A stretch of 64,000 nt of DNA from Picocystis sp. L7. Lineage: Eukaryota > Chlorophyta > Picocystophyceae > Picocystales > Picocystaceae. The position numbers and the translations under genes were made by a program. Shown here piece after piece: positions 25,514 to 49,728 of the stretch (position 1 is its first letter; each line of letters begins with the position of its first letter). The stretch is from positions 1 to 64,000 of the forward strand of contig QXJR01000025.1 in assembly GCA_020975725.1 (NCBI GenBank). The letters are read 5' to 3'. Below the pieces are notes generated by a model, which saw nothing but the letters and a program-made list of their open reading frames with translations, was not told where the DNA came from and searched no databases.

Positions 25514-26562
25514 CTAGGATTCACTTGGGCTGCGTTCCACGAGCCAATCAATCATCTCCGCCAGCACTTCTTCGTTGTTCGGCTCGTGCACGAGGAAATG
25601 ACACCGGTCCTCCAGCATTCTCAATGTCTTGTCGGTGGAGGATGCCTTTGCATACATCTCTTCGCTTCCTCCTTTGTCCACGAAGGTGTCTTCCGCACTC
25701 TGAAAGATGATGAACGGGAACCGGATGTTGGGCATCTCCTTGACCAGGAACGAGGTAGCCCTCACGTATTCCATGGCCACGTGGACCCTGGGATTTTCTT
25801 CGTAAGTCAGCTCATCCACTTCGAATTCTTCCTGCAGGGCCGGAAACTTGACGTTTTTCCCGATCTTTCCCAGCTTGGCTTTGGGCGTCAACACGTCGAA
25901 CACCCTGGACAGAGGCAAGAGCACGTTGTTTGGGAAGGACTTCTTCTGCTTTTCCAAGGAGAGCATGGGACAGAGCAGGCAGACCCCCTGCACCAGCTCG
26001 GGACGGGCATGTACGGTCAGTGTGGCCAAGCATCCACCCATGCTGGTTCCGACCAAGAAGAGTGGTTTTTGCTCTCCTTCGTCCTGCATCTTCCGCAGGG
26101 TCTCGAGGAAGAGGACGGCATCTTGCACGAGGTCATCGAAGGCTTTGAAGTAGCATCGGTTGTCCGGATCGATCCCTTCGGACAGCCCGTGGCTCTGGAT
26201 GTCGAACGCATGGACTTCCAACCCTTTCTGGTTCATGGTTTCCACCCAGGATCCGTCGTAGGTGTGCAGCTTCCCTCGCCCGTGGGACTTGAGGAATTCA
26301 TAGCAAGCGTAGGCGCCGTGTCCGTGGAGCATCACCACCTTGGCCAGGACCTCCTCTTGTTGGCTGGGCCATGTGTAGGCTGCCAAGGTGGTCCCTTTGG
26401 TGTTCTGGAAGGTCCAATGACGCCCTCGAACGCCCTGCCACCGACCCCGAACCCGTGTCAGCCACGTGTCCGCCCCGCCCCGATCCCTCGATCACGTGAC
26501 GAAGAACCCTTCTCGCCCTCCACCGCACGTACCAGCCAGGCTGGGGGAGGCGCAGCCGCCAT
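25514..26562 (-). CDS. Alpha/beta hydrolase, monoacylglycerol-lipase-like, with a predicted 98-nt intron
   Basis: The main exon (26434-25514) encodes a complete alpha/beta hydrolase: VVMLHGHG oxyanion region, FDIQSHGLSEG, the nucleophile elbow GTSMGG, a late Asp in FQSAEDTFVD and the His in RCHFLVHE. This is the hydrolase-4 (monoglyceride lipase/lysophospholipase) pattern. The main exon has no suitable in-frame ATG before the conserved WTFQNTKGTTLAAYTW start segment. An ATG at 26562 in good context (AGCATGGCGG), ten codons, a GTACGTGCG donor at 26532, a CTGAC branch-site match and a GGCAG acceptor at 26435 give a phase-0 join and a 316-residue protein. Substrate is probably an acylglycerol or lysolipid. 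The intron is inferred from sequence alone. Confidence 0.75.
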
Positions 26563-27823: not shown

Positions 27824-30800
27824 TCACCAGGTACGCGAAACCTCCTCCTTCCATTCCCTCTCAAACACCAATTCTTTGTTGTAAAAACTGCTCAGATTCG
27901 TTGTGACATGAACCACACCGTGCACTTCTGTCATCCTGCATTGCAGAAGTGACTCAGTCTTCCATGCATCCCTTTCCACAGCAGTTCTCCATGAAATCTC
28001 GTGAGAAAAGCCGTGAGTTGAAGGACTGTCAACACTGCCGATCGAGAACTTCTCAACCTTGGCAGAATCCAAGACCAAGTTGATGTCCTCGAACCTACGA
28101 GCCCCGTTGTCATCGGTTCGAGTTACAGTGAGCTTCCTCGTGGACGAACAGTGTTCAACATCACGGGACTGCTTTCCACCCCTGATGGTGGACACCTTTC
28201 GGCCACTGGAAATGAGTGCATCTGGCAACTGCTGAGACTGGCCACATTGGACAGCTTTTGCCACACCAGGGCTCTCTGCTGGAGCAGTCGTCAAATGCAA
28301 GGTGCTCACACCAGTAAACACGCTTGCCATAGATGGTGAGGAAGACGGCCACGCAATCGGCCAGTAATCCCTCGTCAATGCCATGCGCAGCTGCCAACCT
28401 CTAGGTACTATAAATGCTGTGAAGTTGAGGGCAAACTCAATGTGCAAGTATCCTTGCTGAGTCTCTTTAGCACTCCTGAGGCTGGCCACTCCGTATGAGA
28501 GGCGTTGTGAGATAGCCTTGGATGGCGACACGGCCTCGAGCCTTACACATATGTTCCCCCTTTCAGCTTTGGATGCATCGACACAATCTAAGAAAAGGGA
28601 GACCTTGGGGTTCCCAAGGATGATTGTATCTTCGTCAAACTCTTGCATGTCAAAGAGGGCAGACAGGTCATCATCCTCAATCTGATTTGTTGCAGAATCG
28701 GGGCCGTTGCCGAAAGAGACGCAAGCCCCACCCTTGAGGCCAGGCGGTTGGCTTGGCGACCCCCCTGCTATTTCCTTTGCACAGGTGATACAGCTCCCAG
28801 GAATGGCAACTCTTTCCTTTGCCGATGGATGGGCCTGCAATGCAGATCTGGGCGCGAGGTGCATTGTAAGGTCTGAAGTACAATCCAAGAGGGCGCCGTC
28901 ACATTTGGCTGCAATCCAAGTTCCAGGTAAGTTGCTTGGTTGTTGGCTTGGTTCCTGCCCAGAGGGTCTCTGAGCATACACAGCCATCTTTGCAAGGTTA
29001 TCATCCTTCGTCCCAAGAAGGTGAGCATCCAGCCAAGTCAAGACTTGTTGCAGGAATGGCCCTTGGGGGCCCAAGGGAGAGGTATGCGGAAAATTATGAG
29101 ACCATGGTCCAACAATACCTTTTGCAGTGGGGACTTTCGAGACAATCCTGGAAACAGCATTGTGGTAATTTCCAGCAGCGGTTCCACCAACAACCAGCAT
29201 TGGAATGTCTATCTTGTCCAGATTGTCTTTGATAGAGCCCATCTTCCAATACTGGTCCTTCCCTCCACCATGCTCCATCCACTTCGTGAAAGGGGGTTGC
29301 AGCATTTCAAGGCGTTCTTTCCACTGTTTTAGCCAAGTGTCTTCCCCAACAAACCCTGGATCAGGGGGCTGCGATGCTGTGTGAAGCATCCAGGCACCCC
29401 ACGATAAGTTGTCGGTGAGCAGTGCCCCGTTCATAAAGTGCATATCATCTTGTTGACGATCGTCCGTGGAACAAACGGCTATGGCTGCTGCAAGGTGGGG
29501 AGCTTTACGTGCAGCAAGCTGCAGGGAAGTAAATCCTCCCCAGGAGCAACCCATCAAGACCACTTGTCCAGAGCACCATGCTTGAGAGGCTGCCCATGCA
29601 ATACATTCTTCAGCATCCTGTTGCTGTCTCTCGGTGTATTCATCATCCAAGATACCTTCGCTGTCCCCGCAGCCCCTCACATCCACCCGGATGCACGCGT
29701 AGCCATTACCTGCCAAGAAGGGATAGGTCATGGCATCAATCTCCAATGTGCCATGGTCCTTCAGGTAAGGAATGATGTCAATGATGGCAGGGACAGTCGT
29801 ACCATCAGGCACCTGCGGCAGCCACAGTTTGACGCTCAGCCTTGTGCCATCTGACATAGGAACCCAGCAATGAGGAATTTCTTGGACTTTGTGTTTCAGC
29901 TCATTCGGTAGCACTGCCCTTAGCTGTGGGGCGACCGAGTCGGAAAGAACTAGCGATTCAGGCAGCTCGTGTTTAGCAGCGTTCGCCCCAGCACACTTCT
30001 CAGATACAAGCTCGCCAAGAGAACGTAAGACAGAGTTGTCATGTAGCTCACTGACTGACACCTCCACTGACCACATCTTTCGGATCTCTCCAACAAGTTG
30101 GATGGCCATCAGGGAGTGCCCCCCAAGGTTGAAAAAGTCATCCAAGGCAGAAATCTCTGGATCTCTAAGCAAGGTGCTCCATATGCCGGCAAGCGCAACC
30201 TCGACATCACCCTCGGGCTGCACGAATTCAGTTCTTGAAGAGTTGGTATGCATATCCTCCAATGAGGGAGCAGGCAAAGCCTTTCTGTCCACCTTGCCGT
30301 TATTCGTGAGAGGCATCTGCTCCAACGAAATGAACACGGGTGGCACCATGTACTCTGGCAAACAGTCTCTCAAGCTTGCTCTTATCGAGCCAATGTCTTG
30401 CGGAGAGAGACCATCCGTTTCCTCGATCCATTTGTTCGTATACCGGTCAATCGGGTCCAGGAGCTGCGTGTCTACAGCTTGCTCGTTTAAAGTAAGTTCT
30501 ACAACACTTGGATAAACCTCACTTGAATCTTTGGGAACAAACAGGGCATCAAAAAATGTGCTACCAGGTTTGCTCTGCCAAAAAAGCTCTGCTTGATACC
30601 CGTGCTCTTCAGCCTTGCGGTACACAACCTCTGGTTCTACCTTCGTTACAGCCATACTTTCCTTCTCAACCAGTTCCCTGAGTTCTCTCACCTTACTAGG
30701 CATTGGAGAAGGTGATTGTCCAAACAAGGTCTTGATCAGGACGGATTCTTGGGCAAGCCTTCCATCAAGCAGCCCTGTCACAGCAAAGGCTTCCTTCTTC

Positions 30801-33800
30801 TCCTTCAAAAGTTCTGTCAAAGTTTCTTCAGGGCGATGGTCGTCCTTCAGTTCCAGGACCGGCACGTCGGAGCTTGTAATCTGATATCCAGAATCACCCT
30901 CCTTGTAAAATGTGACATCATAGCGGAACATGCTGAACTCACTGTGGTGTATGCCTCGTTTCATCTCCAGCTTGACATGCGCCAGTCCTGGCACAAGACC
31001 AGACTGAGGAAGGGCCAAAAAGAACTGGGGATCAACCAGAAGCTCCTTCTCAAACTTGATTCCCTTCTTGATCAGGAGCTGGAGCTCTGAGACGCTGCTC
31101 TCGTCCCCTGCCTTGAACGTCTCAACCGATGCATGGAAGTGTCGCAGAAGCTGATTGTTCCGCACATCACCAAGGAAGAACTTTCCTCCTGGAGTAACTG
31201 CAGAAACTGAGTTTCGTATGACATCCAGGAGGTAGGCTGCCGAAGGGAAATACATGCTCACGCCATTGCAGACGATGGTGTCCAGCTTCTCATCTGCAAA
31301 CTGGAGACTCTCATGGGCACCGGCTAGAGTGACAGAGGCCCAGGGCATGGTAAACTTGGGCTGCTTCATCACCGTCTCTACATATCGAACAGCTTGCTCC
31401 GACAAGTCAGCCCCAATGTAACGATCACAGGATTTCGCACACCGGAAAAATATCATGCCGTTCCCACAACCTTGCTCCAGTACCCGCACTGGATTGAGTG
31501 CGGCGATGCGGTCGCAAGTCGTCTCGACCCACTCTCGCACAACCGCTGCCTGGTGGGGCACACGCGGAGTGTAGCTGTTGTCATACCCACTGAAGTTCAG
31601 TGTGGGATCATCAGTAAGCGCATTCTGACTGGCATATGCTTCGTCGTATATGCTTGCCCACATACCCACTGTTGACAAGTCGGCTTCACTTGATTTGGCT
31701 CGATCCAAGTTGTCTTCACCTTCATTGCTTGGTAGACTCTCGCTGAGGGAGTCGTCTTCTGAGGCGTCCTCACTGCCCACAGATGGGACCACGTAGGCAA
31801 CCAGCTGTTCATCACCGCTCTCAATCAGGGGCCGTGCATCAACCACCGCGTGATGAACAAGCGGGTGCTTGACCAGCACAGATTCAATCTCACCAAGTTC
31901 AATGCGAAATCCGTGAACTTTGACCTGATGATCGATTCGACCCATGCACTCCAGCTGTCCCTTCCAATTCCATCGAGCATAATCTCCAGTCCCATAGAGT
32001 CTGTCCCTTGAGTCAAAAGGGCTTGCAATGAACCGCTCATGAGTAAGGTCCGGACGTCCCAAGTAACCTTCGGAGACACCTACACCGCCGATGAAAAGCT
32101 CTCCCTGCACTCCAACTGGCTGTAGCTGGTGCTGGGGATTGAGGATGTATACCGTTGTGTTGTCGATCGGATGTCCGATGTGAACCACTCCATCGTCCTC
32201 GATTTCTGCAAACGTGGACCAGATCGTGGTCTCTGTTGGCCCGTACACGTTAAGCAGTCGCTTCACGGCTGGCTTGAGCGCAGCTGCAAGGTCTGCTGGC
32301 AGGGCCTCGCCACCACAGAGGCAAATCAGGTCGGAGGATCCCTCCCATCCAGATGCAAACAGCATCTTGTAAGTCACTGGAGTCGCTTGCATCATGGTGA
32401 CCTTGGCATCGGACATGACCTTTTGAAGCAAGCTCGCGTCCGCCGCCTCCTCCTTCAGGGCCAGTGCCACAGTTGCACCGGACACAAGCGGCATGTACAG
32501 CTCCAATCCAGCAATGTCAAAGCATATGGTGGTCAGGGCCAAAAACTTGTCTTGCACGTTGATCTTTGTGGACTTCTTGAAACTATGGATGGTGTTCACC
32601 AAGGACAAATGCTTCACAATCACCCCTTTCGGCCGACCCGTGCTGCCAGAGGTGAATATTACGTACACTGGATCTTCTGGGGAGCATGCATGCAGATCCA
32701 GACCGGCTCCATCCATACTGTGCACACCGGCCTCCGGATCATCCATGGCGATTGGTTTTGCACCAATGTTCCATTCACGCAAGTACCGGGCAAGGGCCAC
32801 GTTGGTGAGCACGAGCTTGCACTTGGAGTCTTCCAACATCATGCGGATTCGATCGTGGGGATACACCGGGTCCAGGGGAACGTATGCGGCTCCCGATTTC
32901 ATGATCCCCAGCAATCCAGCGATGAGGTCCGGGGAGCGATCCATGTAAATGGCCACGTACTCACCCCTGCCTGCGCCTTCCTGCTTCAGCTTTCGGGCGA
33001 TTTGATTGGAGAGACGGTCCAGTTCTCCATAGCTGACCGGCTTTTTACCCGTGCACACGATCGCAGGATGATAGGGGCTCGTCTGAGCCACCAAGGAGAA
33101 AAGCTCATGAATGCACTTGCCTTTGGGGAACGGCTGGCTGGTGTTGTTGACACCGTGAAGGAGGGCATCTTTCTCCTTCGTCCCAAGGAAGCAGACCTCG
33201 TTTGCTGGGCTGCGAGGTTGTTGATCCAGGAGCCGGAGAAGGTTTCCCAGGTGTTTAGAAGTGGTCTTGGGTTCTGCCTCGAGGAAGCACTCTCCCGCAT
33301 CGAACGAGAGGAAGCACTTCTGCATGGACGATTCGGGCGTGTCTGGAACGGTCAGGGTAACACACCAGGTGTACTTTCCGCTGGGCAATGTCTTTCGAGC
33401 GGTCTCGACTGCCCTGGTCACGCCTCCCTGGGATTCCCTGGCGATGGCGAGGACCAGCTCGGGGAGGACCGCATCCTCTTCTTCGTGCTTCCTCTCCATG
33501 GCATCCGCCACACCTTCCCATGTATCCCAGCGGGCATCTTCCAGCGATGCTTGAGCCCTGCACACGGCATCGTGCAGGGTGGCCTGGGCCGGGCATTGAT
33601 GTTCCACCCAGGCGGCGGTTTTCCTCCTCGCTTCGGTGTCGAGGTCGAGGGCCAGCACATCCAGACGTTCTGCATCCCCCGTGTAGCGCTGCAGGAGTGC
33701 CATGGTGGCAGCCATGAGCTTGGCCAGCCCTCCCTCGGATCCCATCTGCACCCCTTCCACTTCCACGGTGCTGGAGGCTGTTTTTTTCCGGTTCCCTGCT

Positions 33801-34054
33801 TCCCTACGCATCCCATGGGGCATGGCCTGCACCCAGGCCACCCCTTCGCTGTGCACCAGGGTCATGCTGGAGGCGCCTCCGCGTGGCGCACGTCTCCCTT
33901 CCACACGTGAAAAATGATCCATGGATCTGGATCCACTGCTGCCATGCCCTGCTGCTCCCTGCCTGGGCCTCAGGGCTGGGAGAGACAGGGGGGGGGGAGA
34001 GCACGTGAGGCAGCTGCCAGTCGGGCGTGCTGGGGGGGGCAGTGAGGGAGACAC
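27824..34054 (-). CDS. NRPS-like protein: C-stub, A(methyltransferase)A, carrier, CocE/S15-type hydrolase
   Basis: A single 2076-residue frame (numbered from the Met at 34054; Met45 at 33922 is an equally likely start). About 100-260 is unassigned. About 265-330 matches the tail of a condensation domain and its linker to adenylation, but no HHxxxDG is present. Adenylation spans about 330-755 (FTSGSTGRPKG 467-477, YGPTE 604-608, GRIDHQVKVHGFRIELGEIE 705-724). A methyltransferase with E-x-GCGNG (860-866) is inserted at about 795-1055, as in N-methylating modules. The adenylation A10 motif NGKVDRKAL is at 1252-1260. A carrier domain has GGHSL with the phosphopantetheine Ser1314. About 1390-1720 is a CocE/NonD or X-Pro-peptidase (S15) hydrolase: RGCGDSEG, nucleophile Ser1504 in GCSWGG, GPWSHN; then a jelly-roll-like C-terminus. 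It probably activates, methylates and releases or hydrolyses one amino acid; the substrate is not readable by eye. Confidence 0.88.
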   Translation of the reverse strand: MSPSLPPPARPTGSCLTCSPPPLSLPALRPRQGAAGHGSSGSRSMDHFSRVEGRRAPRGGASSMTLVHSEGVAWVQAMPHGMRREAGNRKKTASSTVEVEGVQMGSEGGLAKLMAATMALLQRYTGDAERLDVLALDLDTEARRKTAAWVEHQCPAQATLHDAVCRAQASLEDARWDTWEGVADAMERKHEEEDAVLPELVLAIARESQGGVTRAVETARKTLPSGKYTWCVTLTVPDTPESSMQKCFLSFDAGECFLEAEPKTTSKHLGNLLRLLDQQPRSPANEVCFLGTKEKDALLHGVNNTSQPFPKGKCIHELFSLVAQTSPYHPAIVCTGKKPVSYGELDRLSNQIARKLKQEGAGRGEYVAIYMDRSPDLIAGLLGIMKSGAAYVPLDPVYPHDRIRMMLEDSKCKLVLTNVALARYLREWNIGAKPIAMDDPEAGVHSMDGAGLDLHACSPEDPVYVIFTSGSTGRPKGVIVKHLSLVNTIHSFKKSTKINVQDKFLALTTICFDIAGLELYMPLVSGATVALALKEEAADASLLQKVMSDAKVTMMQATPVTYKMLFASGWEGSSDLICLCGGEALPADLAAALKPAVKRLLNVYGPTETTIWSTFAEIEDDGVVHIGHPIDNTTVYILNPQHQLQPVGVQGELFIGGVGVSEGYLGRPDLTHERFIASPFDSRDRLYGTGDYARWNWKGQLECMGRIDHQVKVHGFRIELGEIESVLVKHPLVHHAVVDARPLIESGDEQLVAYVVPSVGSEDASEDDSLSESLPSNEGEDNLDRAKSSEADLSTVGMWASIYDEAYASQNALTDDPTLNFSGYDNSYTPRVPHQAAVVREWVETTCDRIAALNPVRVLEQGCGNGMIFFRCAKSCDRYIGADLSEQAVRYVETVMKQPKFTMPWASVTLAGAHESLQFADEKLDTIVCNGVSMYFPSAAYLLDVIRNSVSAVTPGGKFFLGDVRNNQLLRHFHASVETFKAGDESSVSELQLLIKKGIKFEKELLVDPQFFLALPQSGLVPGLAHVKLEMKRGIHHSEFSMFRYDVTFYKEGDSGYQITSSDVPVLELKDDHRPEETLTELLKEKKEAFAVTGLLDGRLAQESVLIKTLFGQSPSPMPSKVRELRELVEKESMAVTKVEPEVVYRKAEEHGYQAELFWQSKPGSTFFDALFVPKDSSEVYPSVVELTLNEQAVDTQLLDPIDRYTNKWIEETDGLSPQDIGSIRASLRDCLPEYMVPPVFISLEQMPLTNNGKVDRKALPAPSLEDMHTNSSRTEFVQPEGDVEVALAGIWSTLLRDPEISALDDFFNLGGHSLMAIQLVGEIRKMWSVEVSVSELHDNSVLRSLGELVSEKCAGANAAKHELPESLVLSDSVAPQLRAVLPNELKHKVQEIPHCWVPMSDGTRLSVKLWLPQVPDGTTVPAIIDIIPYLKDHGTLEIDAMTYPFLAGNGYACIRVDVRGCGDSEGILDDEYTERQQQDAEECIAWAASQAWCSGQVVLMGCSWGGFTSLQLAARKAPHLAAAIAVCSTDDRQQDDMHFMNGALLTDNLSWGAWMLHTASQPPDPGFVGEDTWLKQWKERLEMLQPPFTKWMEHGGGKDQYWKMGSIKDNLDKIDIPMLVVGGTAAGNYHNAVSRIVSKVPTAKGIVGPWSHNFPHTSPLGPQGPFLQQVLTWLDAHLLGTKDDNLAKMAVYAQRPSGQEPSQQPSNLPGTWIAAKCDGALLDCTSDLTMHLAPRSALQAHPSAKERVAIPGSCITCAKEIAGGSPSQPPGLKGGACVSFGNGPDSATNQIEDDDLSALFDMQEFDEDTIILGNPKVSLFLDCVDASKAERGNICVRLEAVSPSKAISQRLSYGVASLRSAKETQQGYLHIEFALNFTAFIVPRGWQLRMALTRDYWPIAWPSSSPSMASVFTGVSTLHLTTAPAESPGVAKAVQCGQSQQLPDALISSGRKVSTIRGGKQSRDVEHCSSTRKLTVTRTDDNGARRFEDINLVLDSAKVEKFSIGSVDSPSTHGFSHEISWRTAVERDAWKTESLLQCRMTEVHGVVHVTTNLSSFYNKELVFEREWKEEVSRTW

Positions 34055-36694
34055 AGGGGATAAGATCCTCGCGTCTGAAAACCGACCCGGGGGAGGGGTC
34101 GGGAAGGGAGGGAGGGGAGGGAGATGCGTGTTCCTCGGGGAAGGAGGACCACGTCACGCCCCCCGGGAAAGGGGGGCATGGAAAGACCGGAAAAGGATGT
34201 GCCCCCCTTCCGGGAGGGAGAACGGACCGAGAAAGGGGGGCATTGGTGCGCCCACCATCGGGGTGCCAGGGTACGGCGCGTGGGATCCACGGAGGCAGGA
34301 AAGGGGGGCATTGGGAACCTCATGGCCGGCTCCGACCGCGAAGGACGGCGTTCGCGGAGCCGCACGAGCCGATCCGAACGCCTCCAGGCGTCCTGGACGA
34401 CCCACCCGGTCCTCCAGACGCGCGAGACGCGTCGCTGCCGCGCCCACGAGCGTCCGACGTCCTGCGCCGCCACGCGTCCCTGTCCACCACAGGGAAACGA
34501 CACGTCGACGTCGCCTGCGATCCCCTTCTCCCCCCTTTGGACCGCAAAGACCGCGGTCTTTCACGGTCCATGACGGTCCTTCCAACCACCGTCTGCCCCG
34601 CTGGATCGATCCGAGCACCGGTCCCCAATGCCCCCCTTTGGGAGGAGATCCCATCTCCACCGTTCCTCGAGGGGGAAAAAAACGTGACCTTCCCTCGGGG
34701 GGGGTGCCGCCATGCCCGATGAATCTACCGCCCCTGTGCCAACGGGAGGGAGGGGGAGACCAGTCCCATGGGTCGAGTGGTTCGGTCTCCTGGGGTTGGG
34801 AAGCGAAGGCGGGAAAGGAACACGCACACCACGCGTGAGGATGAACCGAAGCACGACTGCTCCTTCCCGTCCCTTCGAACGGGAACTGTCGAACCGAAAG
34901 TGCTTGTTCTTGCACGGACGACTCGCCTCTCCTCCCCGGAATCCTAGCTTCGTCAAACCACAATGGCACAAGAGCCACCTCTCCGATGGCATAGGGGCTC
35001 CCTCTCTCCGGAAACGCAAGTCGCCACAATCGTGGTGGTGATCCACCGAGTGCATCTCAGACCTCGAATGAAACATGCTAGCTTATCCCGCATCTAAACG
35101 ACGTTACAACATGCATTGCACGGAGCTCTGTTGCCATCATGCCCTTCCTCTCCTAGAAGTTGGAGCAACGAATGGGTCCTTGCTTCGTGCGCTTCTTTGT
35201 CTCCTTGTAAAACCGTCAAGGTTTTGTTGGAATTGCTTGCTTCCATGAGCAATCGCGTGTTGGGGAGCTCCATGGGTATAGTGAAACAAGCATCAACGTG
35301 ACCTTGGCAACTTTAAGAAACATTGCCTTACATATATAGCAGAGCACTCGAAAACGATAGCTTGAGAAGTTTAGATGCTGGCCTCGTTCGTGCCTAAAAA
35401 GCCAACAGCCAAACATCGTTTTTCCGACAAGATAGATATTGCTACTCGCACATTGCCTTTCGGACTGCGTCATGAACTACGTTTGTGAGGTTTCCACTCC
35501 GCCATCTTTTGCAAGGTTTACAGGTCTGCTCTATCGTGGTCACTTGTAGAGGGTGAAGATGCGAGGGACATGTGATGCGCTATGGAGTTAGATTACCATG
35601 CCGAATGCACTTTGACTCGGTTGAAATTGTGCGCTTTGCAAAACCCCTTGGTGTAAAAGCACCACACAGATTGGCTCAATCTTTGGGCACCCCGTGGAGG
35701 ACTTAAGGCTCATCAAGATAGCCTCCTTCGAAAGGAAAGCACCCGCTCGCCATCGCTTTGAGACAATAGAAGAAATCATCGAATGGACTTTGTCTTAGGG
35801 ACCCTTCCAAAGGTCTCCCATCATCACCCTTCTCAGAGGGCGAGCTTCAAGCCATTCTTGGTCCTAATGGGACTTGTTTGGGCAATCTACCAATTGGGTG
35901 GCCACGACGAGTTCGAGAAAGGTCCAACCGTTTTCCTTGGTGAGTTCCGGTCGATGCAGCAAGATGTCCTTCCTCCAATCACTTCGATCGCCATTCAACA
36001 AGACTCGTCGACAAGGCGGATGCCTCTGTTCACAAGTTTTGTAGTCCATCAATACCATTGTGAACAATAGGATTCAACGCAACCTAGACCTCTTCGACGA
36101 TGTCTTTTTCTTTTGTTTCATCTTGGCGATGTTATTTGTCCTCACGCAAGCTGGCTGACTCATACCGATTTGAGGTGATTGCCAAAATGTTTTGGATTGT
36201 GAAGGTATGTGCATGAGAAAGATGTGCTTTTCCGATCTCATGCCGCACCATGTATGCACGAGAACGAAATCGTTGCAGCCGAGCCCCCTTTAATCTTGTG
36301 GGATGGTTCGAACGAAAGAGATTCTCGAAGCGATGCTTTCGTTACAAAATCTCTTTGGACGGATGTGTGGGTGTTTGCCACCTTCCGTCAATGCGAAGAG
36401 ATTCACAAATCGGGATTTTCTCGTTCAGCATGCCTAGCTTCGGATGGTCTCCAAGCGGCATCTTCACCGCGACACATGCACGTGAGTTGTTCCTTATCAC
36501 CTCGTCTCCACTTCACTCTCACTTCCCTCGTCATCCGCTTTCACGGTGTCCTCTTGGCTACTCTTCGATCCCCCTCCCCGTTGAGAAATTGGCCTTGTTT
36601 CCCATCCCTCCATGTTGTGGGCCATTCGGTTGGGTGGCAGACCCTGACCCTGAATAGAGACCCACCGGACAGGACAGGGTCTTTGCACAAAACA
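34055..36694. other. GC-rich upstream region of the NRPS-like gene, then low-GC gene-free DNA
   Basis: 34055-34900 is GC-rich and has three direct copies (about 34168, 34232, 34299) and one inverted copy (34625) of a GAAAGGGGGGCATTGG-like block, also found upstream of the P-type ATPase. It also holds a GACCGCAAAGACCGCGGTC segment at 34536-34555. 35060-36560 is lower in GC with no recognised gene. The open frame that runs from 36209 into the first GT17 gene shows no family resemblance before 36695. Confidence 0.4.
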
Positions 36695-38125
36695 ATGTGG
36701 AACCGGCGTTCGAAGCGGTTTTCGGGATGCTTGGGTGTGCTGACGATGCTCCTGGTCCTTGCGTTCCTCCTCAACGTGCAGTTCTTGGACACACTGCAGG
36801 CCTGGTGGATGGACGGCAAGAGGAATGGAGAAGCGATGGAAGAAAGAGCCAATCCAAAGCCCAACGTCCGACAGATGTCCGAACAGGAACGCTCGTTGTG
36901 GGAGATCTGGAACCAAGTGGACGTGCCTGTGCGTTGGAACGGTGCACCCCCTCCCAAGACCCAGCTGCTGGAAGCCTTGGCGCTGGTGGCCAGCCTGCCA
37001 CCCTCCCATCCCATCAACCAATCCTGCACTCCTCCACCATTGGATCCACAACCCACCTGCACCGGCGGGACCGGCTTCACCGGCACACCGCTCCCCAGTC
37101 CGCGCCGGATCGTGCACATGGCCCTGCTTGGCTTTGAGACCGACACCCTGGAGATCTTGCTGCGCGAGGAAGTGGACGTGGTGGATGTGATATTCCTGGT
37201 GGAATCCACCCGCTCCCACAATCCCCAAGGCCAGGACCCACGCGCCACCAAACCTCTGATGTGGGATCGATTGAAGCACAGCCCGCGGTTCCGGTTTGTG
37301 CCCCCAGACAAGGTGGTCCACATTGTGGTGGACGACTCTGAAATCTTTGCTGCCTTGCATGAGCCACCCGATGAAAAGTTTGCGGTGGAGTGGCTACAAA
37401 CAAAAATGGGAGTTGCACATGTGAAGTACTGGGCGCAACAGGCAGGAGGGTTTGGGACACATGACTTGCTCATCAGCGGTAATGTCGACGAGTTGATTAG
37501 CCGCGAAACCATCCAGAAATTACGGTGGTGCGAGATCGCAGATACTGTGATTTCCAGTGCTACGTGGATGCCTTTGGGAACGCTGGACAGGGTATTCAGG
37601 ACAGACTGGCCTGCTGTCGATTTGGAATATACATTCGCTCTCCCCACAATCTACAGATGGGATGGTATACTGAAAGGTGACTTCAAAGGGGGAAGGATGT
37701 TTTCACTGGAGGAATTCCGGGGATGGGAATGGAAGTACGTGCAAGGCGGCCTCCACATGACCAACATAGGATTTCTACCACACGCACTTCTGAAGGACCT
37801 CACAGGAACCGAGTACAAGGGTGAGATACTCCTCGACAATCACACACTGCACATGTTAGACAGGGCGCAGCTCGATATAAGTGGTCTCACAAACAAGGAG
37901 TTGCTTTCAGAAAGAACCTCTAGCTTGAATACTTTAGACGAACGGTACCAAGGTTGGCTGCCGTACACTCCATGGTTCTTAGCGTGTAATCAGAAGCGTT
38001 ACCCGTACTGGTACAGTAATCCAGATCCTCGCAACCAGGCACTTCTTTATGTCTTGAAGATGCTAGCTACCGGCAAAGACTACAAAGCAGTGCACTTTTT
38101 TGTAGAGCAGCCAATTTCTCCATGA
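36695..38125 (+). CDS. GT17-family glycosyltransferase, copy A
   Basis: A 476-residue type II membrane protein: a short basic cytoplasmic tail, a transmembrane anchor at about 12-31, a stem, then a GT17 domain (FETDTLEILLREEVDVVDVIFLVEST, a KPLMW region, and LLISGNVDELISRETI for the DxD-like site). GT17 is the family of MGAT3, which adds beta-1,4-GlcNAc to the core mannose of N-glycans in the Golgi. The ATG at 36695 was chosen because it gives the basic tail and anchor seen in the sister genes; the frame is open further upstream without homology. 36908-37335 is identical in DNA to the sister genes, while the rest differs strongly, including a divergent C-terminal half. Confidence 0.88.
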   Translation: MWNRRSKRFSGCLGVLTMLLVLAFLLNVQFLDTLQAWWMDGKRNGEAMEERANPKPNVRQMSEQERSLWEIWNQVDVPVRWNGAPPPKTQLLEALALVASLPPSHPINQSCTPPPLDPQPTCTGGTGFTGTPLPSPRRIVHMALLGFETDTLEILLREEVDVVDVIFLVESTRSHNPQGQDPRATKPLMWDRLKHSPRFRFVPPDKVVHIVVDDSEIFAALHEPPDEKFAVEWLQTKMGVAHVKYWAQQAGGFGTHDLLISGNVDELISRETIQKLRWCEIADTVISSATWMPLGTLDRVFRTDWPAVDLEYTFALPTIYRWDGILKGDFKGGRMFSLEEFRGWEWKYVQGGLHMTNIGFLPHALLKDLTGTEYKGEILLDNHTLHMLDRAQLDISGLTNKELLSERTSSLNTLDERYQGWLPYTPWFLACNQKRYPYWYSNPDPRNQALLYVLKMLATGKDYKAVHFFVEQPISP

Positions 38126-40331: not shown

Positions 40332-41765
40332 ATGTGGAAGAAATGCAGCAGTCGCATGGGATGGAAGGCGTGGAAAACGCGACAGGTGCAGCTGACGTTC
40401 GGGCTGGTGGTGATGGGGATGCTGCTGCTGAGCAACCTGCACTTCTGGACCGTGCTTCCCAGTCGCAAAGCATCCATAAGCAGGGCAGAAGCATCCATAC
40501 AAGCCTCTCCTGACGTACCTGGTTCCCTGCGTCGCGCCTGGGAAGAATGGAACCAAGTGGACGTGCCTGTGCGTTGGAACGGTGCACCCCCTCCCAAGAC
40601 CCAGCTGCTGGAAGCCTTGGCGCTGGTGGCCAGCCTGCCACCCTCCCATCCCATCAACCAATCCTGCACTCCTCCACCATTGGATCCACAACCCACCTGC
40701 ACCGGCGGGACCGGCTTCACCGGCACACCGCTCCCCAGTCCGCGCCGGATCGTGCACATGGCCCTGCTTGGCTTTGAGACCGACACCCTGGAGATCTTGC
40801 TGCGCGAGGAAGTGGACGTGGTGGATGTGATATTCCTGGTGGAATCCACCCGCTCCCACAATCCCCAAGGCCAGGACCCACGCGCCACCAAACCTCTGAT
40901 GTGGGATCGATTGAAGCACAGCCCGCGGTTCCGGTTTGTGCCCCCAGACAAGGTGGTCCACATTGTGGTGGACGATGCGGAGATGCAGCGTGCCAGGAGC
41001 GCATCGGTGGAGGATCGGTTCTCCGTGGAAGACATGCAGACCCGTGCAGGGATCGATCGCGTGAAGCACTGGGCGGAAGCGACGGGTCACCTCTCCCCAA
41101 CCGACATCTTCATCAGCGGGGACGTGGACGAGGTTCCCAGCCGCTCGACCCTGCATCGTTTGCGTTGGTGCGAGCTGACGGACCCCATGGTGTCCAGTGC
41201 GCTGTGGATGCCCATGGGGAGCCTGGATCGAGCTTTTCGAACGGATTGGCCTGCTTTAGGCCTGCCGTACACCTTCTGCAGCCCAACGATATATGAATGG
41301 GGTAGCATCTTGTCCGGCAAGCTTTCTGGAGTCAGACAGCTAGCGCTGCAAAAGTTCAGGAATTGGCCAGTAAAGTATGTTGTCGGAGGAATTCACATGA
41401 CAAATGGGGCCTTCTTACCTAGCCAAATGCTGAAAGAAGCGAGCGCAACTTCCTACACAGGTAGAATCAGCTTTGAAAATTCAACACTTCAAAGCCTAGA
41501 TCTATTGCAGTGGAAGCACTATACGTTATCTTTGCAACCTCACCTTCTGAAGCGTACGGTGCCTTTAGGTTCTCTCGGGCCAAAGTATACAAGCTGGTTG
41601 CCGTCTCTTCCCTGGTTCTTGGAATGCAATCCGGCCACTTTTCCTTCTTGGATTGGTCAACCTGACCCTCGTAACCAGGCTCTACTGTTTGTCCTGAAGC
41701 AATTGGCCTCAGGTAAGAACCTCTCCAGTGTAGATTTTTTGCTAAGCATGTCAACAGCAGGTTAG
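40332..41765 (+). CDS. GT17-family glycosyltransferase, copy B
   Basis: A 477-residue protein with the same plan as copy A: basic tail, anchor (about 20-40), stem and GT17 domain with FISGDVDEVPSRSTL. Its DNA is a mosaic: 40500-41233 is identical to copy C but for one base seen by eye, while the N-terminal anchor and the part from 41234 to the stop are unrelated at DNA level and only similar in protein. The shared junctions fall inside the coding frame, as expected from gene conversion. It probably acts on N-glycans in the Golgi, with a changed C-terminal half that could alter the acceptor. Confidence 0.88.
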   Translation: MWKKCSSRMGWKAWKTRQVQLTFGLVVMGMLLLSNLHFWTVLPSRKASISRAEASIQASPDVPGSLRRAWEEWNQVDVPVRWNGAPPPKTQLLEALALVASLPPSHPINQSCTPPPLDPQPTCTGGTGFTGTPLPSPRRIVHMALLGFETDTLEILLREEVDVVDVIFLVESTRSHNPQGQDPRATKPLMWDRLKHSPRFRFVPPDKVVHIVVDDAEMQRARSASVEDRFSVEDMQTRAGIDRVKHWAEATGHLSPTDIFISGDVDEVPSRSTLHRLRWCELTDPMVSSALWMPMGSLDRAFRTDWPALGLPYTFCSPTIYEWGSILSGKLSGVRQLALQKFRNWPVKYVVGGIHMTNGAFLPSQMLKEASATSYTGRISFENSTLQSLDLLQWKHYTLSLQPHLLKRTVPLGSLGPKYTSWLPSLPWFLECNPATFPSWIGQPDPRNQALLFVLKQLASGKNLSSVDFLLSMSTAG

Positions 41766-42999: not shown

Positions 43000-43061
43000 A
43001 TGGATGACGTGTCCAAGGAGGTGGACACGTGAGTGGCTTCCCGCAAACATCCAGAAGCGAT

Positions 43062-44938
43062 GATACCACCACAGCAAGCGTATCCATACGATGGTGACGA
43101 AGCAGATGGACGCAGGAAAGCACCAGGTGTGGCCGCCACGGTTCTTGTACGTCACCCTCGCCCTTGCAGCCACCGCACTGGTCACCAACACGTGGGTGTG
43201 GGTGGAAACCCTCACGTGTTCCCACTGCAACCACGACGAAATCGTGCCAGTCCAAGCCTCTCCTGACGTACCTGGTTCCCTGCGTCGCGCCTGGGAAGAA
43301 TGGAACCAAGTGGACGTGCCTGTGCGTTGGAACGGTGCACCCCCTCCCAAGACCCAGCTGCTGGAAGCCTTGGCGCTGGTGGCCAGCCTGCCACCCTCCC
43401 ATCCCATCAACCAATCCTGCACTCCTCCACCATTGGATCCACAACCCACCTGCACCGGCGGGACCGGCTTCACCGGCACACCGCTCCCCAGTCCGCGCCG
43501 GATCGTGCACATGGCCCTGCTTGGCTTTGAGACCGACACCCTGGAGATCTTGCTGCGCGAGGAAGTGGACGTGGTGGATGTGATATTCCTGGTGGAATCC
43601 ACCCGCTCCCACAATCCCCAAGGCCAGGACCCACGCGCCACCAAACCTCTGATGTGGGATCGATTGAAGCACAGCCCGCGGTTCCGGTTTGTGCCCCCAG
43701 ACAAGGTGGTCCACATTGTGGTGGACGATGCGGAGATGCAGCGTGCCAGGAGCGCATCGGTGGAGGATCGGTTCTCCGTGGAAGACATGCAGACCCGTGC
43801 GGGGATCGATCGCGTGAAGCACTGGGCGGAAGCGACGGGTCACCTCTCCCCAACCGACATCTTCATCAGCGGGGACGTGGACGAGGTTCCCAGCCGCTCG
43901 ACCCTGCATCGTTTGCGTTGGTGCGAGCTGACGGACCCCATGGTGTCCAGTGCGCTGTGGATGCCCATGGGGAGCCTGGATCGAGCATACATGGACAAGC
44001 GCATGGCTTTGGATTTGCCTTACACCTTCTGCAGCCCGACGATCTACCAGTGGGGCAGTGTCCTGGCGGGGCAGCACGACGGGACACGGATGACCACGTA
44101 CTCCACCCTCCGCGATCAGCAAGTCCCCTACCTCCTGGGAGGTTTGCACATGACCAACGCCGCTTTGATGCCCAACGTGATGTTGAAAGAACTGTCCGCC
44201 ACCTCGTACGGTTCCAAGGCCCCCACGCATGCGTACACCCAGATGCTGTTAGACCAGGAGCAGCGCAGCCGATATGCATTGAAAGCCCAGCCTGAGCTCT
44301 GGGAACGGGTTGTCCCCTTGCATGCCCTGGGAAGTCAATACGACGGCTGGCTTCGCTTTCTCCCCTGGTTTTTGGAGTGCAACCCTTGGCGGTATCCATA
44401 CTGGTTTGGTCACTCCGATCCCCGCAACCAAGCGCTGCTGTATGCGATGAAGCGGTTGGCTGCCGGGGAGGACCCCACTATTGTCCAACAGCTTCACCTC
44501 GTGAACATCCACCGGTGAGATTCTGGATGGAGACAGGAGGCGTCTGCTTCCTTCCCCTCGTGTTTGAACTTCGGATCGCAGAGGGAGAGGATTTGGATCC
44601 ATGGTTTCTCGGTCTTTCCAGGTTGGGGTGGTTTGTCCTTGCATGCCTTGTGCCTGCTGTGGTCCTGGAAATCCCCGCGTGGTGTTCCCCGACAGAAATT
44701 GCTGCAGGTCTGGGATGGTGTCTTGCTGGTTCGGCACGTCCCGTCCCTTCTGGATTTCCCTGTGTCTGCTTCCATGGATCCTTGCAACAAGTCCATTCTT
44801 TTCCTGATCACAAAGGAAGAAGGGCCAGGATGGGTGGATGGAACTGAACTTCTCATCTACCCATCCCACGCTCTGGGTGAACATTCATCGTAAACTCGCC
44901 TGGATCCATTCCCTCTCCCTCAAACCTCCTTTCCTTCC
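43062..44938 (+). repeat. Segmental duplication, unit 1 (GT17 copy C)
   Basis: About 1.88 kb, from just upstream of the copy C start to about 420 bp past its stop, recurs at 47852-49728 with only a handful of base differences seen by eye. Sequences on either side are unrelated. Confidence 0.85.
43091..44518 (+). CDS. GT17-family glycosyltransferase, copy C
   Basis: A 475-residue type II membrane protein with anchor at about 18-36, a CSHC.H cysteine/histidine cluster in the stem, and a GT17 domain (FETDTLEILL, DIFISGDVDEV, HMTNAALMPNVMLKELSATSY). It is nearly identical to copy D and shares its central 734 bp with copy B. MGAT3-like transfer of GlcNAc to N-glycan cores is the family's known activity; the algal product is not known. 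Two CCCCGGGG palindromes and a CACGTG box lie upstream. Confidence 0.9.
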   Translation: MVTKQMDAGKHQVWPPRFLYVTLALAATALVTNTWVWVETLTCSHCNHDEIVPVQASPDVPGSLRRAWEEWNQVDVPVRWNGAPPPKTQLLEALALVASLPPSHPINQSCTPPPLDPQPTCTGGTGFTGTPLPSPRRIVHMALLGFETDTLEILLREEVDVVDVIFLVESTRSHNPQGQDPRATKPLMWDRLKHSPRFRFVPPDKVVHIVVDDAEMQRARSASVEDRFSVEDMQTRAGIDRVKHWAEATGHLSPTDIFISGDVDEVPSRSTLHRLRWCELTDPMVSSALWMPMGSLDRAYMDKRMALDLPYTFCSPTIYQWGSVLAGQHDGTRMTTYSTLRDQQVPYLLGGLHMTNAALMPNVMLKELSATSYGSKAPTHAYTQMLLDQEQRSRYALKAQPELWERVVPLHALGSQYDGWLRFLPWFLECNPWRYPYWFGHSDPRNQALLYAMKRLAAGEDPTIVQQLHLVNIHR

Positions 44939-47880
44939 GCTGTTTAATCTTTTCTTTGCCCCGTTGCATTATCCTTTATGTCACATCCCAGCATTGACTC
45001 ACCTGGCCGTGTTTTTAGTACAAATCAATGCACCGTTTTTGGGGTTCACGCATTTGAGCACGTTTGATGGACGGACCGCTCTTGCGTTGAATGTTTAGAT
45101 CTAGTTTAATCCGTGTTTGACCTTTCTTGTTACATATGGTCCCGATTGGGAAAGCGTTTTAGTTGTATGCATGTTAGGTCCGATAAGAAATGAAGAGGCA
45201 ATCTTATCGATGAAACACTCGTTCTTTGGTACTTAGGTTGATTCTGTGCGAATCCCCATATTAAAAGAGACAAGATGTGCCAACAGCAGAAGCGCTTGAT
45301 CTCACAACTTGAGGGAGGATTAAGTCACAAGAATAATGGTAAAGCACGTGCGTATAAAACACGGGGGGGATGTTGGCATCCATGATAACAGTGTACTAGT
45401 TGATTTTTACGACGTGCACTGTGGCATGGGAGGGGTGCATACCCAAACGGATCATGCGGAGTTATGTTCAACTTGGTTCAAATTAAAATCGGACACTCTT
45501 GCATCCCATGTGGATGTTTGTGGCTTTGTTTCCCTCTTCGCAATGACGATTGGTGGACGAACAAATTGTATTTGTGAGAGATGAAACGCACAAGCACAAC
45601 AAAAAATTGTACAATTAAAAGCTTTGTTACATGGATTAGAAGCACAAGTACTATTTGAAAGATACGCAAATGTATAGTTGTGGCGCAATTCAAGCATTTG
45701 CGGGAGGGCAACAAGCATGAAGCACAAGAGTCCTTCAGCTTTTTTTACTAATCATCCTCTACTTAGAGCTCATGGTTACCTGCGAATCAACTTTACCGTA
45801 TTCTATCATCGCAAAACTGCAGCTTCGAGTATCTGTCGCACACTTCGAATTCCAAGAATTCCTTTTGGCCGTTGTAATCAAGAAACGTTAGCCTCGCTCT
45901 AACATGAGTGGGTGATAGTTTTTGGACATTTGGTTGCTACTCTGATTGAACGGCAACTTCATGCATCATTTAAAAAGACTCACTCATGGCAAGGGTCTTT
46001 GGCTACATTTCGCGATGTATTAGTCCTTGGCAAATTGAGCATAATGCCTACTTTCGATATTACTCGTAAATGCTCCATAAACATGCGTCTTAAACAAGGC
46101 AAGTGCACACTTGGCATTCATTGACCCATGATGGGGACTCCATTCAAATATTTTTGAATAATGGAAGATGACACGAACCCACCACGATGGCATTCAAGGT
46201 TGAAATGCCGTTGAGTTGAGATCAAGGGTGCACGGTGGACATCTCGTTCACCCCTAAGCAATGTTTACCGATGAAAGTGGACCGGTTCCGATGCAAGTCT
46301 CGATTTACTCGTTCTACCACCCGCTTTTGTGTGGGGCGAAGAATGCCCCAACTAATGGTCTCATTAGTCAAAATGGGACAACGAATCTAGAGTTGGATTG
46401 GTTCTCATTATAAATCCTCGTCTTCCTAGGTGTCAAAGGTACAAAATGTCGATCCTAATTGAGCCCAACAAGGTTTGATTTTGGAAAAGCTTAAGCAAGA
46501 ATTTCCCATTTCCCTTCCCATCATCTTGTCCCGAGTGATTCTCGGGTTCAATAGGTGAAGCAAAGATGACAAGATGGCGAAATGTCAATCAATCCAAGGT
46601 GGTCACCTCAAGACACCGTTAGGAACCACAAGGCCCAGCAAGGGTTCCTAACCCATTGAATGGGGTTATCTACCCCTCGATGGGCAAGGGTACTTAACTC
46701 ACCCACATTCGACTTTGATATCAAGTTGATCTTGACTTAGAAGACCACGAACCGCCTTTCGAGCGCCTCTCATCCTATAAGGCAACTTCCTCCACATTGG
46801 TGGAGTTCGAGAGCAAGGAGAGTGCTCCTGAGAGACACGCAACAAATGCGTGGGGAGCAACGAGTCTCCTTGGGCTCAAACATAACGTGCACACCTTTAC
46901 GAGAACCAATGCGCAAGTGCCAGATTTTAGCAAACCTGTGATCTACAAGAGGCGGCTCAAAGAAGGGAAAGGCAAAAGATATTGTTGCATGGAAGAAAAG
47001 CATTAGGCCAATCTCATGAATCATTAGGAACTTAATGTGAGGTGTGTTCCTATCAAATCTTCAAGAAAATCTATCCTCTCTACTTGCAGCGTACAAAACC
47101 GAGTCAAGTTTCTTAATTGAACGAGTTATTTCCCTCAACACACCATTCGTAACCGGGTGTTTTGCAGGACGATGTGTTTCCTCATTGAGTTGCTTCATCT
47201 TCCTGCTTTAATCGAACATCCGGATCAAGTGCCCCCATCGACTTATAGTGCGTGGAGATCGGGTGCACTTGATAGGAGAATCAAGGTCACCATCGGGGTG
47301 AGAGTATAATCTTAATCATGGGGGTTCAAAGCTCAATCGCAACTCATGGGGATGCTCCTCGAACAGTCCATCGGCGTGGGTTCCCTCTGGAACACCGACA
47401 GTTACCTTCCGTTATTCATTCCATAGGTTTGCATGTCAACTTGGGCACTAGGCATGTCACGAACTTGGTTCCAAGGTTATTCATCGTGTTCCAATCGCTT
47501 CCTTTGCTTCGTCTTCTAGGTTTCCCATAGTCTTACGAAGACAACCAATTGCCTACTTCTAGGTACCTACCCGCACACCCATCTCTCATTCAGCGCGAAC
47601 CCACCGGAGTGACTCTCACCTACGATCTCCCGCCTTTGGTGCGACATCCTCCTTCCCAACATCGATGGGATGGCCCCATCCCTTATCCCAACGAGAATCG
47701 AGAACACCTTTGAGGGGGGAGGGCGAATATTCTCCGAATTGGGGCGACCCTGGTGGACGAACACGATTGTACACAACTCGATTGACCGACTGGTTGCAGT
47801 CAACCTTCAGTCGCAACACAAGGGCAAGGTCCACGTTCAGTCGTTCGAGATGACACCACCACAGCAAGCGTATCCATACG
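44519..47880. other. Low-GC gene-free stretch between GT17 copies C and D
   Basis: 44519-44938 is the 3' part of the duplicated unit. 44990-47560 is visibly richer in A/T than the flanks and carries only short frames without domains. 47450-47520 resembles 13520-13590 (shared TCACgAACTTGGTTCCAAG core), so both hold a piece of one dispersed repeat, probably a decayed mobile element. Confidence 0.4.
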
Positions 47881-49728
47881 ATGGTGACGAAGCAGATGGA
47901 CGCAGGAAAGCACCAGGTGTGGCCGCCACGGTTCTTGTACGTCACCCTCGCCCTTGCAGCCACCGCACTGGTCACCAACACGTGGGTGTGGGTGGAAACC
48001 CTCACGTGTTCCCACTGCAACCACGACGAAATCGTGCCAGTCCAAGCCTCTCCTGACGTACCTGGTTCCCTGCGTCGCGCCTGGGAAGAATGGAACCAAG
48101 TGGACGTGCCTGTGCGTTGGAACGGTGCACCCCCTCCCAAGACCCAGCTGCTGGAAGCCTTGGCGCTGGTGGCCAGCCTGCCACCCTCCCATCCCATCAA
48201 CCAATCCTGCACTCCTCCACCATTGGATCCACAACCCACCTGCACCGGCGGGACCGGCTTCACCGGCACACCGCTCCCCAGTCCGCGCCGGATCGTGCAC
48301 ATGGCCCTGCTTGGCTTCGAGACCGACACCCTGGAGATCTTGCTGCGCGAGGAAGTGGACGTGGTGGATGTGATATTCCTGGTGGAATCCGCCCGCTCCC
48401 ACAATCCCCAAGGCCAGGACCCACGCGCCACCAAACCTCTGATGTGGGATCGATTGAAGCACAGCCCGCGGTTCCGGTTTGTGCCCCCAGACAAGGTGGT
48501 CCACATTGTGGTGGACGATGCGGAGATGCAGCGTGCCAGGAGCGCATCGGTGGAGGATCGGTTCTCCGTGGAAGACATGCAGACCCGTGCGGGGATCGAT
48601 CGCGTGAAGCACTGGGCGGAAGCGACGGGTCACCTCTCCCCAACCGACATCTTCATCAGCGGGGACGTGGACGAGGTTCCCAGCCGCTCGACCCTGCATC
48701 GTTTGCGTTGGTGCGAGCTGACGGACCCCATGGTGTCCAGTGCGCTGTGGATGCCCATGGGGAGCCTGGATCGAGCATACATGGACAAGCGCATGGCTTT
48801 GGATTTGCCTTACACCTTCTGCAGCCCGACGATCTACCAGTGGGGCAGTGTCCTGGCGGGGCAGCACGACGGGACACGGATGACCACGTACTCCACCCTC
48901 CGCGATCAGCAAGTCCCCTACCTCCTGGGAGGTTTGCACATGACCAACGCCGCTTTGATGCCCAACGTGATGTTGAAAGAACTGTCCGCCACCTCGTACG
49001 GTTCCAAGGCCCCCACGCATGCGTACACCCAGATGCTGTTAGACCAGGAGCAGCGCAGCCGATATGCATTGAAAGCCCAGCCTGAGCTCTGGGAACGGGT
49101 TGTCCCCTTGCATGCCCTGGGAAGTCAATACGACGGCTGGCTTCGCTTTCTCCCCTGGTTTTTGGAGTGCAACCCTTGGCGGTATCCATACTGGTTTGGT
49201 CACTCCGATCCCCGCAACCAAGCGCTGCTGTATGCGATGAAGCGGTTGGCTGCCGGGGAGGACCCCACTATTGTCCAACAGCTTCACCTCGTGAACATCC
49301 ACCGGTGAGATTCTGGATGGAGGCAGGAGACGTCTGCTTCCTTCCCCTCGTGTTTGAACTTCGGATCGTAGAGGGAGAGGATTTGGATCTATGGTTTCTC
49401 GGTCTTTCCAGGTTGGGGTGGTTTGTCCTTGCATGCCTTGTGCCTGCTGTGGTCCTGGAAATCCCCGCGTGGTGTTCCCCGACAGAAATTGCTGCAGGTC
49501 TGGGATGGTGTCTTGCTGGTTCGGCACGTCCCGTCCCTTCTGGATTTCCCTGTGTCTGCTTCCATGGATCCTTGCAACAAGTCCATTCTTTTCCTGATCA
49601 CAAAGGAAGAAGGGCCAGGATGGGTGGATGGAACTGAACTTCTCATCCACCCATCCCACGCTCTGGGTGAACATTCATCGTAAACTCGCCTGGATTCATT
49701 CCCTCTCCCTCAAACCTCCCTTCCTTCC
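47852..49728 (+). repeat. Segmental duplication, unit 2 (GT17 copy D)
   Basis: Second unit of the 1.88-kb duplication that includes a whole GT17 gene. The left edge begins inside the shared CACCACAGCAAGCG stretch. Confidence 0.85.
47881..49308 (+). CDS. GT17-family glycosyltransferase, copy D
   Basis: A 475-residue protein differing from copy C by one residue seen by eye (VESA for VEST) and a few silent bases. Anchor, stem and GT17 motifs are intact. The upstream region differs from that of copy C just above the duplicated part: it lacks the CCCCGGGG palindromes, so the two near-identical proteins may be expressed differently. This looks like a very recent duplicate. Confidence 0.9.
   Translation: MVTKQMDAGKHQVWPPRFLYVTLALAATALVTNTWVWVETLTCSHCNHDEIVPVQASPDVPGSLRRAWEEWNQVDVPVRWNGAPPPKTQLLEALALVASLPPSHPINQSCTPPPLDPQPTCTGGTGFTGTPLPSPRRIVHMALLGFETDTLEILLREEVDVVDVIFLVESARSHNPQGQDPRATKPLMWDRLKHSPRFRFVPPDKVVHIVVDDAEMQRARSASVEDRFSVEDMQTRAGIDRVKHWAEATGHLSPTDIFISGDVDEVPSRSTLHRLRWCELTDPMVSSALWMPMGSLDRAYMDKRMALDLPYTFCSPTIYQWGSVLAGQHDGTRMTTYSTLRDQQVPYLLGGLHMTNAALMPNVMLKELSATSYGSKAPTHAYTQMLLDQEQRSRYALKAQPELWERVVPLHALGSQYDGWLRFLPWFLECNPWRYPYWFGHSDPRNQALLYAMKRLAAGEDPTIVQQLHLVNIHR

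Follow-up and report, generated by a model that had tools for sequence, protein, structure and literature searches.

A single open reading frame on the minus strand of the window (27824-34054), the window being a stretch of 64,000 nucleotides from contig QXJR01000025.1 of the green alga Picocystis sp. L7, encodes a nonribosomal peptide synthetase (NRPS)-like protein that ends in a domain of the CocE/NonD (peptidase S15) family. Pfam, NCBIfam, alignments and a custom hidden Markov model (HMM) place in this one frame, in order, the decayed C-terminal lobe (C-lobe) of a condensation (C) domain, an adenylation (A) domain interrupted by a methyltransferase (MT), a carrier (T) domain, and a full-length CocE/NonD domain (Table 1). 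An A domain and a carrier with their core motifs are present in one protein, with Ser1314 in LGGHS, as in NRPS-like single-module enzymes. The protein is not a canonical NRPS of C-A-T order with HHxxxDG in its C domain, of which there is only the C-lobe remnant.

The frame contains no internal stops in its 2076 codons, and the carrier is joined to the hydrolase by a stop-free linker of about 50 residues. The stop codon is 27824-27826, and the same frame stays open on the 5' side as far as 34153. The span given by the sequence-only reading begins with a GTG at 34054, an unlikely start in a eukaryote; the extension upstream of it (34054-34153) has no ATG, and codon 45, at position 33922, is where an in-frame ATG first occurs. 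Searches with the full-length protein against plasmids and against phages returned no record in which one place covered 80% of the query.

Table 1. Features of the NRPS-like frame, with their positions in the window
Feature	Residues	Coordinates	Strand	Basis and remarks
Whole open frame	1-2076	27824..34054	(-)	2076 codons; likely coding sequence 27824-33922, starting at ATG codon 45
Decayed C-lobe of condensation domain, with C-A linker	110-300	33155..33727	(-)	Custom HMM and global profile alignment
Adenylation domain through and beyond motif A8	323-763	31766..33088	(-)	Pfam, NCBIfam, alignments; pocket D-I-L-Q-L-G-V-I-W-(K), glycine-type
Inserted N-methyltransferase region	about 775-1225	30380..31732	(-)	S-adenosylmethionine (SAM) motif VLEQGCGNG; RGIHHSEFSMFRYDV motif; Pfam, PDB 5wmm_A, bacterial alignment
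Remaining adenylation domain with motif A10, NGKVDRK	1252 on	30260..30373	(-)	Alignment to bacterial A-MT modules
Carrier (T/PCP) domain, LGGHS	phosphopantetheine Ser1314	30008..30193	(-)	Pfam, alignment
CocE/NonD (peptidase S15) domain with PepX_C-like C-terminal part	1402-2076	27827..29851	(-)	Pfam, NCBIfam, alignments, AlphaFold/Foldseek
Oxyanion-hole Tyr1430 (= CocE Tyr44), retained	1430	29765..29767	(-)	Alignments
Nucleophile Ser1504 (= CocE Ser117), retained	1504	29543..29545	(-)	Alignments
Ala1627 in place of catalytic Asp (= CocE Asp259); Trp two residues before it replaced by Thr1625	1627	29174..29176	(-)	Alignments
Catalytic His1653 (= CocE His287), retained	1653	29096..29098	(-)	Alignments

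Predicted amino acid activation and methylation, and the condensation remnant

The activating part of the protein was recognized by Pfam as AMP-binding (4.5e-79, residues 323-665), AMP-binding_C (2.4e-8, residues 722-763), methyltransferase families (best 4.1e-10, residues 858-957) and PP-binding (5.6e-11, residues 1288-1349), and TIGR01733 (AA-adenyl-dom) was among the best 25 of 118 NCBIfam families at 417.8 bits against a cut-off of 317.4. The structure PDB 5wmm_A, presumably TioS A4-MT, aligns continuously across the A domain and the MT (residues 315-1055). Bacterial A-MT modules share the A motifs as far as A8, the SAM motif VLEQGCGNG, GDVR, RYDV, A10 (NGKVDRK) and LGGHS; the A domain is of the interrupted type, with an MT bearing a SAM motif between A8 and A9/A10.

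The specificity pocket, read from alignments to 5u89_A and to bacterial A-MT modules and counted from the motifs FDxxxLE, MQATP, LCGGE and NVYGPTETTIW, consists of the residues DILQLGVIW plus the A10 lysine, its positions following the PheA numbering as checked by eye against 5u89_A. The pocket of 5u89_A, which is presumably the glycine-activating DhbF module, is identical over the nine aligned positions except for Leu in place of Val. The first eight letters equal DILQLGVI, a code that the available text of PMC5466765 gives as predicted to activate glycine, in agreement with the product, and the available part of PMC12283262 includes DILQLGMIWK among the codes of glycine domains. The pocket is thus of DILQLGxIWK type, with Val322 being the letter of the NcmD code, and by this code the A domain is likely glycine-type. 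Because a glycine-type pocket is combined with an N-methyltransferase, the carrier-bound product is likely sarcosine (N-methylglycine), and there is good reason to expect that the A-MT-T part works on glycine. The proposal of the sequence-only reading that the enzyme activates and N-methylates one amino acid is supported by sequence, and its suggestion that the pocket code be predicted has now yielded glycine as the candidate.

The condensation domain is much reduced. A Pfam search of residues 45-330 found no C domain even at E<=10, the sole match being to an unrelated phage family (0.29), and in the PDB this segment has weak matches to NRPS C-A regions over residues 261-327 (0.0095-0.036). 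A custom HMM, for which 18 bacterial C domains were cut from fetched loci with an extension into the A domain, has a match to residues 255-327 (4.9e-8 in a search space of all window frames), and a helix motif at residues 113-128 is collinear with the profile at a score that is not significant. Aligned globally to the C-lobe columns, residues 110-254 scored -0.5. The 200 shuffles averaged -30.1 (sd 6.4) and the 66 decoy segments -37.5 (sd 5.8), with no single one as high as the real segment. Most of this signal is carried by the helix motif, without which 13 of the 200 shuffles reach the score; as the segment was picked after the HMM match, the alignment is support rather than proof. An AlphaFold single-sequence model of residues 60-330 was of low confidence (pLDDT 38.7) and was not used. 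The condensation domain had been described earlier as cut down to its C-terminal part, a view that stands, the remnant being perhaps somewhat longer than a tail.

The custom HMM detected no condensation N-lobe (HHxxxDG) in any of the six frames of the window among stretches of at least 25 residues. A complete C domain in an upstream exon within the window was rejected by the same six-frame search, a shorter exon being possible. With the catalytic lobe missing, a peptide bond would not be made through an ordinary C domain.

The S15 domain and its catalytic residues

The C-terminal domain scores well above the cut-offs of its families: Peptidase_S15 (PF02129) matches residues 1402-1653 at 4.4e-53 (181.1 bits, cut-off 23), PepX_C matches residues 1785-1912 at 2.1e-8 (34.8 bits, cut-off 22.5), and CocE_NonD (TIGR00976) reaches 156.2 bits (cut-off 66.3). 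Stand-alone bacterial CocE/NonD hydrolases align with it across the whole C-terminal part of about 690 residues at 29-39% identity, and the domain is therefore regarded as full length. An AlphaFold model of residues 1376-2076 (pLDDT 85.1, pTM 0.89) shows a confident CocE-type fold, for which the top PDB matches of Foldseek are cocaine esterases and then another CocE/NonD enzyme; alpha-amino acid ester hydrolases and X-Pro dipeptidyl aminopeptidases occur further down, within the first 29 rows. Profile and full-length fold together assign the domain to CocE/NonD. The 18 Pfam families matched at E<=1 include no family of thioesterases (PF00975), reductases or condensation domains (PF00668), and a standard thioesterase or reductase ending was rejected on this ground. 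The domain search of the full protein that the sequence-only reading had called for thus agrees with its account of a CocE/S15-type end.

The catalytic residues are only partly conserved. All 93 bacterial frames compared, which derive from 92 fetched loci (some loci giving more than one), contain the nucleophile Ser, the His, and both the Trp and the Asp of the GW-x-D loop. The protein of Picocystis retains Ser1504 and His1653; it has Ala1627 for the Asp and Thr1625 for the Trp, and its loop is longer by one residue. Neither this loss nor the glycine code is part of the sequence-only reading. The same pattern holds against all 42 rows of an alignment hand-chosen from the 80 genome loci for spread and clean frames. 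Pairwise alignment to cocaine esterase pairs Ser117 with Ser1504, Tyr44 with Tyr1430, His287 with His1653, and Asp259, presumably the triad acid of CocE, with Ala1627. A frameshift was rejected as the cause of the lost Asp, since the DNA at 29194-29153 keeps the reading frame of the conserved residues that flank it; base errors are possible. The Ser-Asp-His triad is incomplete. As far as sequence can tell, the domain has the S15 fold by descent, and no S15 hydrolase activity is claimed for it.

Alpha-amino acid ester hydrolases, which share the fold class, act on alpha-aminoacyl groups and can aminolyse them: according to the available part of PMC3890990, they form an acyl-enzyme that reacts with a nucleophile to give amides, and are defined by the triad and by a carboxylate cluster that binds the alpha-amino group. 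The S15 domain of Picocystis does not belong to them, lacking the triad Asp at 1627 and an acid at the next two carboxylate positions, 2-3 residues after. A Ser-His dyad with an oxyanion-hole Tyr and no acid might hydrolyse slowly or pass an acyl group to a particular acceptor, and would also fit a dead domain. The earlier suggestion that the hydrolase simply releases the product is weakened, because an Asp invariant in 93 bacterial frames is Ala1627 here.

Relatives, related systems and the surrounding window

Relatives of the S15 domain are numerous in bacteria, being found in 291 plasmid records (the top-ranked rows covering 98-99% of the domain at 33-34% identity) and in genomes, where the best 80 loci of 569 relatives were retained (L012-L091) and identity reaches 36-39%. 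Neither an A nor a T domain was found at E<=1e-3 beside the hydrolase in any of these 80 loci or of the eight plasmid hydrolase loci (L001-L008), the flanking sequence extending no further than 6 kb and in places ending sooner with the contig. The only A/T matches in the 92 loci scanned were in three (L009-L011) that had been fetched as NRPSs. Among 1290 sampled bacterial genomes (samples of 5, 296, 398, 294 and 297, four centres being counted twice), the four larger samples covering the phyla to which a Streptomyces, a Mesorhizobium, a planctomycete and a desulfobacterial locus belong, with Cyanobacteria, myxobacteria and eukaryotes outside the sample, no listed hydrolase match (E<=1e-40) lies in a frame long enough for A-MT-T; at most two to three first-look candidates were scored per genome, and the matches of one sample were listed in part. 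The two longest hydrolase frames (1116 and 988 residues) contain, by eye, only the hydrolase behind a low-complexity frame. Viral contigs contributed a single locus, L092, with a match of 40 residues, and a single-sequence scan of genome contigs gave three pattern matches and no relative.

Five plasmid hydrolase loci carry annotation, and in four of these (L001-L004, not L008) the hydrolase gene has beside it the genes of an ABC transporter, comprising a substrate-binding protein, two permeases and an ATPase. This hints that the stand-alone relatives in L001-L004 act on an imported amide or ester. Compared with such proteins, the S15 domain of Picocystis is distinguished by its fusion behind a carrier as well as by the loss of the catalytic Asp and the Trp.

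The activating part has its own relatives. Plasmid NRPSs of Nostoc sp. NIES-3756 (L010) and Planktothrix agardhii (L011) have the same order A(N)-MT-A(C)-T with an a8-a9 interruption, and their best A domains are 45% and 43% identical to that of Picocystis, with related pocket letters. They differ in being larger NRPS proteins whose match ends at about query residue 1371, and the tail of the Nostoc protein is, by eye, reductase-like rather than S15. Ebony and the algal 'Other(A)' enzymes also have an A domain and a carrier with another domain instead of the usual C domain (PMC10531068, PMC7073580). Ebony, an animal single-module enzyme, has an atypical condensation domain (PMC10531068), whereas the 'Other(A)' enzymes have thioesterase or reducing ends, with no mention of an S15 end in the available part of PMC7073580. 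No NRPS with a CocE or S15 domain, and no interrupted glycine domain that makes sarcosine, was found described in the literature searched; in that literature S15 as the terminal domain of an NRPS is without an earlier description, and NRPS-like enzymes themselves are known.

The frame lies in a eukaryotic genome, as indicated by nearby frames for a retrotransposon, glycosyltransferase 29, glycosyltransferase 17, a cation-transporting P-type ATPase and DNA_pol_phi; bacterial contamination of the contig was rejected because of these flanking genes. Codon usage correlates with that of the ATPase and DNA_pol_phi frames at 0.84-0.87 for the A-MT part and 0.75-0.80 for the T-hydrolase part; a glycosyltransferase 17 segment, out of frame with 12 stops, was excluded from this comparison. 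The next gene downstream on the same strand (25517-26491) encodes an S33-type hydrolase (Hydrolase_4, 1e-42) and is a possible partner. Neither Rfam at gathering scores nor ARAGORN found a match in the window.

Several repeats are present in the window. A stretch of 428 bases at 36908-37335 recurs at 40548-40975, 43301-43728 and 48091-48518 with 99.5-100% identity, two or more of the four lying within glycosyltransferase-17 frames, and a 1.9 kb segment is duplicated at 43059-44938 and 47849-49728 with 99.5% identity; these repeats are attributed to gene conversion or to duplication in recent time. Retrotransposon frames with reverse transcriptase occupy 1884-5701 on the plus strand, the second (3554-5701) having RNase H domains followed by a match to C-5 cytosine DNA methylase (2.3e-10). 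Tandem repeats of 75 bases form two arrays at 7963-10773. The second array is inverted relative to the first and shares about 76% identity with it; the minus strand of the first array codes for DUF285 repeats (8.7e-96).

Proposed function and its alternatives

The pocket code suggests that glycine would be adenylated and loaded onto the phosphopantetheine of the carrier, and the family of the inserted MT suggests N-methylation with SAM to sarcosyl-S-carrier. The S15 domain may then accept the sarcosyl group on Ser1504 by means of the Ser-His dyad and release it or transfer it to some nucleophile, which could be an amine, an alcohol or another carrier. That the S15 domain acts on the loaded aminoacyl group is moderately probable, and if it does, transfer by analogy has a slight edge over hydrolysis: the triad acid is gone while Ser, His and the oxyanion Tyr stay, the ordinary transfer domain (C) has been lost from the same protein, and there are analogies to alpha-amino acid ester hydrolases and to LgnA, an analogy that is not membership, given the incomplete triad. 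LgnA, a type II thioesterase of the legonindolizidine system, shifts an aminoacyl group between carriers and resembles the present proposal in acting with an aminoacyl carrier, LgnB A-T0; it differs as a separate 29 kDa protein handling threonine, methylation not being mentioned in the available part of PMC8748450. As a whole, the proposal is tentative, a possible rather than a probable reading: an NRPS-like enzyme that activates glycine and N-methylates it, and whose S15 domain accepts the sarcosyl group and then releases it or, with slight preference, transfers it. The bolder form, in which an S15 domain without its triad acid has replaced the C domain as the acyl-transfer domain to give a stand-alone sarcosyl (N-methylglycyl) transferase, is doubtful.

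Several observations weigh against this proposal. Ser-His dyads are still capable of hydrolysis, and no acceptor gene is evident nearby. The T-hydrolase part has a lower G+C content at third codon positions (0.53) and correlates less in codon usage with the S33 hydrolase gene (0.57). Like the bacterial relatives, the domain lacks acids at the two positions where alpha-amino acid ester hydrolases have carboxylates next after their triad Asp. Further residues invariant in the 42-row alignment have been lost, including Arg1431Leu, Asp1434His, Glu1477Gln, Trp1625Thr and Glu1670Gln. In the activating part, the MT motif is NGVSMYFP rather than the NSVxQYFP of cyanobacterial modules, and Val is present at 322, whereas PMC12283262, in the part available, assigns Leu/Met322 to glycine domains.

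An ordinary releasing hydrolase, working through the Ser-His dyad or an unrecognised replacement acid and turning glycine into free sarcosine, is rather unlikely. It would account for Ser1504, His1653 and Tyr1430 in a confident CocE-like fold, and it has a parallel in the algal 'Other(A)' enzymes with A domain, carrier and thioesterase (available part of PMC7073580); however, the Asp and neighbouring Trp conserved in 93 of 93 frames are lost, the acids gained within 1526-1714 (Asp1572, Asp1684, Asp1685 and Glu1701) are known by sequence position only, and this route to sarcosine is costly in ATP. Since invariant residues have been lost in addition to the Asp, a catalytically dead domain also fits, serving as a structural or binding platform from which another enzyme collects the sarcosyl group, and the decay of the C domain would be in keeping with it. 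It is nevertheless unlikely, because drift does not predict that Ser, His and the oxyanion Tyr would all be retained, and about 690 residues can be aligned end to end.

The same two losses, of the C domain and of the triad Asp, might instead mark a relic in which a deletion joined an NRPS module to a hydrolase gene and which is now decaying without a defined function. This is improbable for 2076 stop-free codons that still hold the core motifs of the A, MT and carrier domains and resemble two host genes in codon usage. Even less probable is an artefact of assembly or of the gene model, such as two genes, or a missed in-frame intron or upstream exon, that would leave the C domain whole or the hydrolase separate. 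The eukaryotic setting and the uncertain start codon leave some room for it, whereas the stop-free linker of about 50 residues, the absence of a C-domain N-lobe from window frames of at least 25 residues, and the eukaryotic genes on both sides argue against it.

NRPSs are reported to be few in algae, in 7 of 32 species according to the available part of PMC4661987, and few likewise according to that of PMC7073580. Surveys that require an HHxxxD condensation domain, as in the part of PMC4661987 available, would miss the enzyme of Picocystis. If its S15 domain is a transferase, NRPS-like enzymes would have an added mode of unloading, and a eukaryote would have a small route to sarcosyl conjugates.

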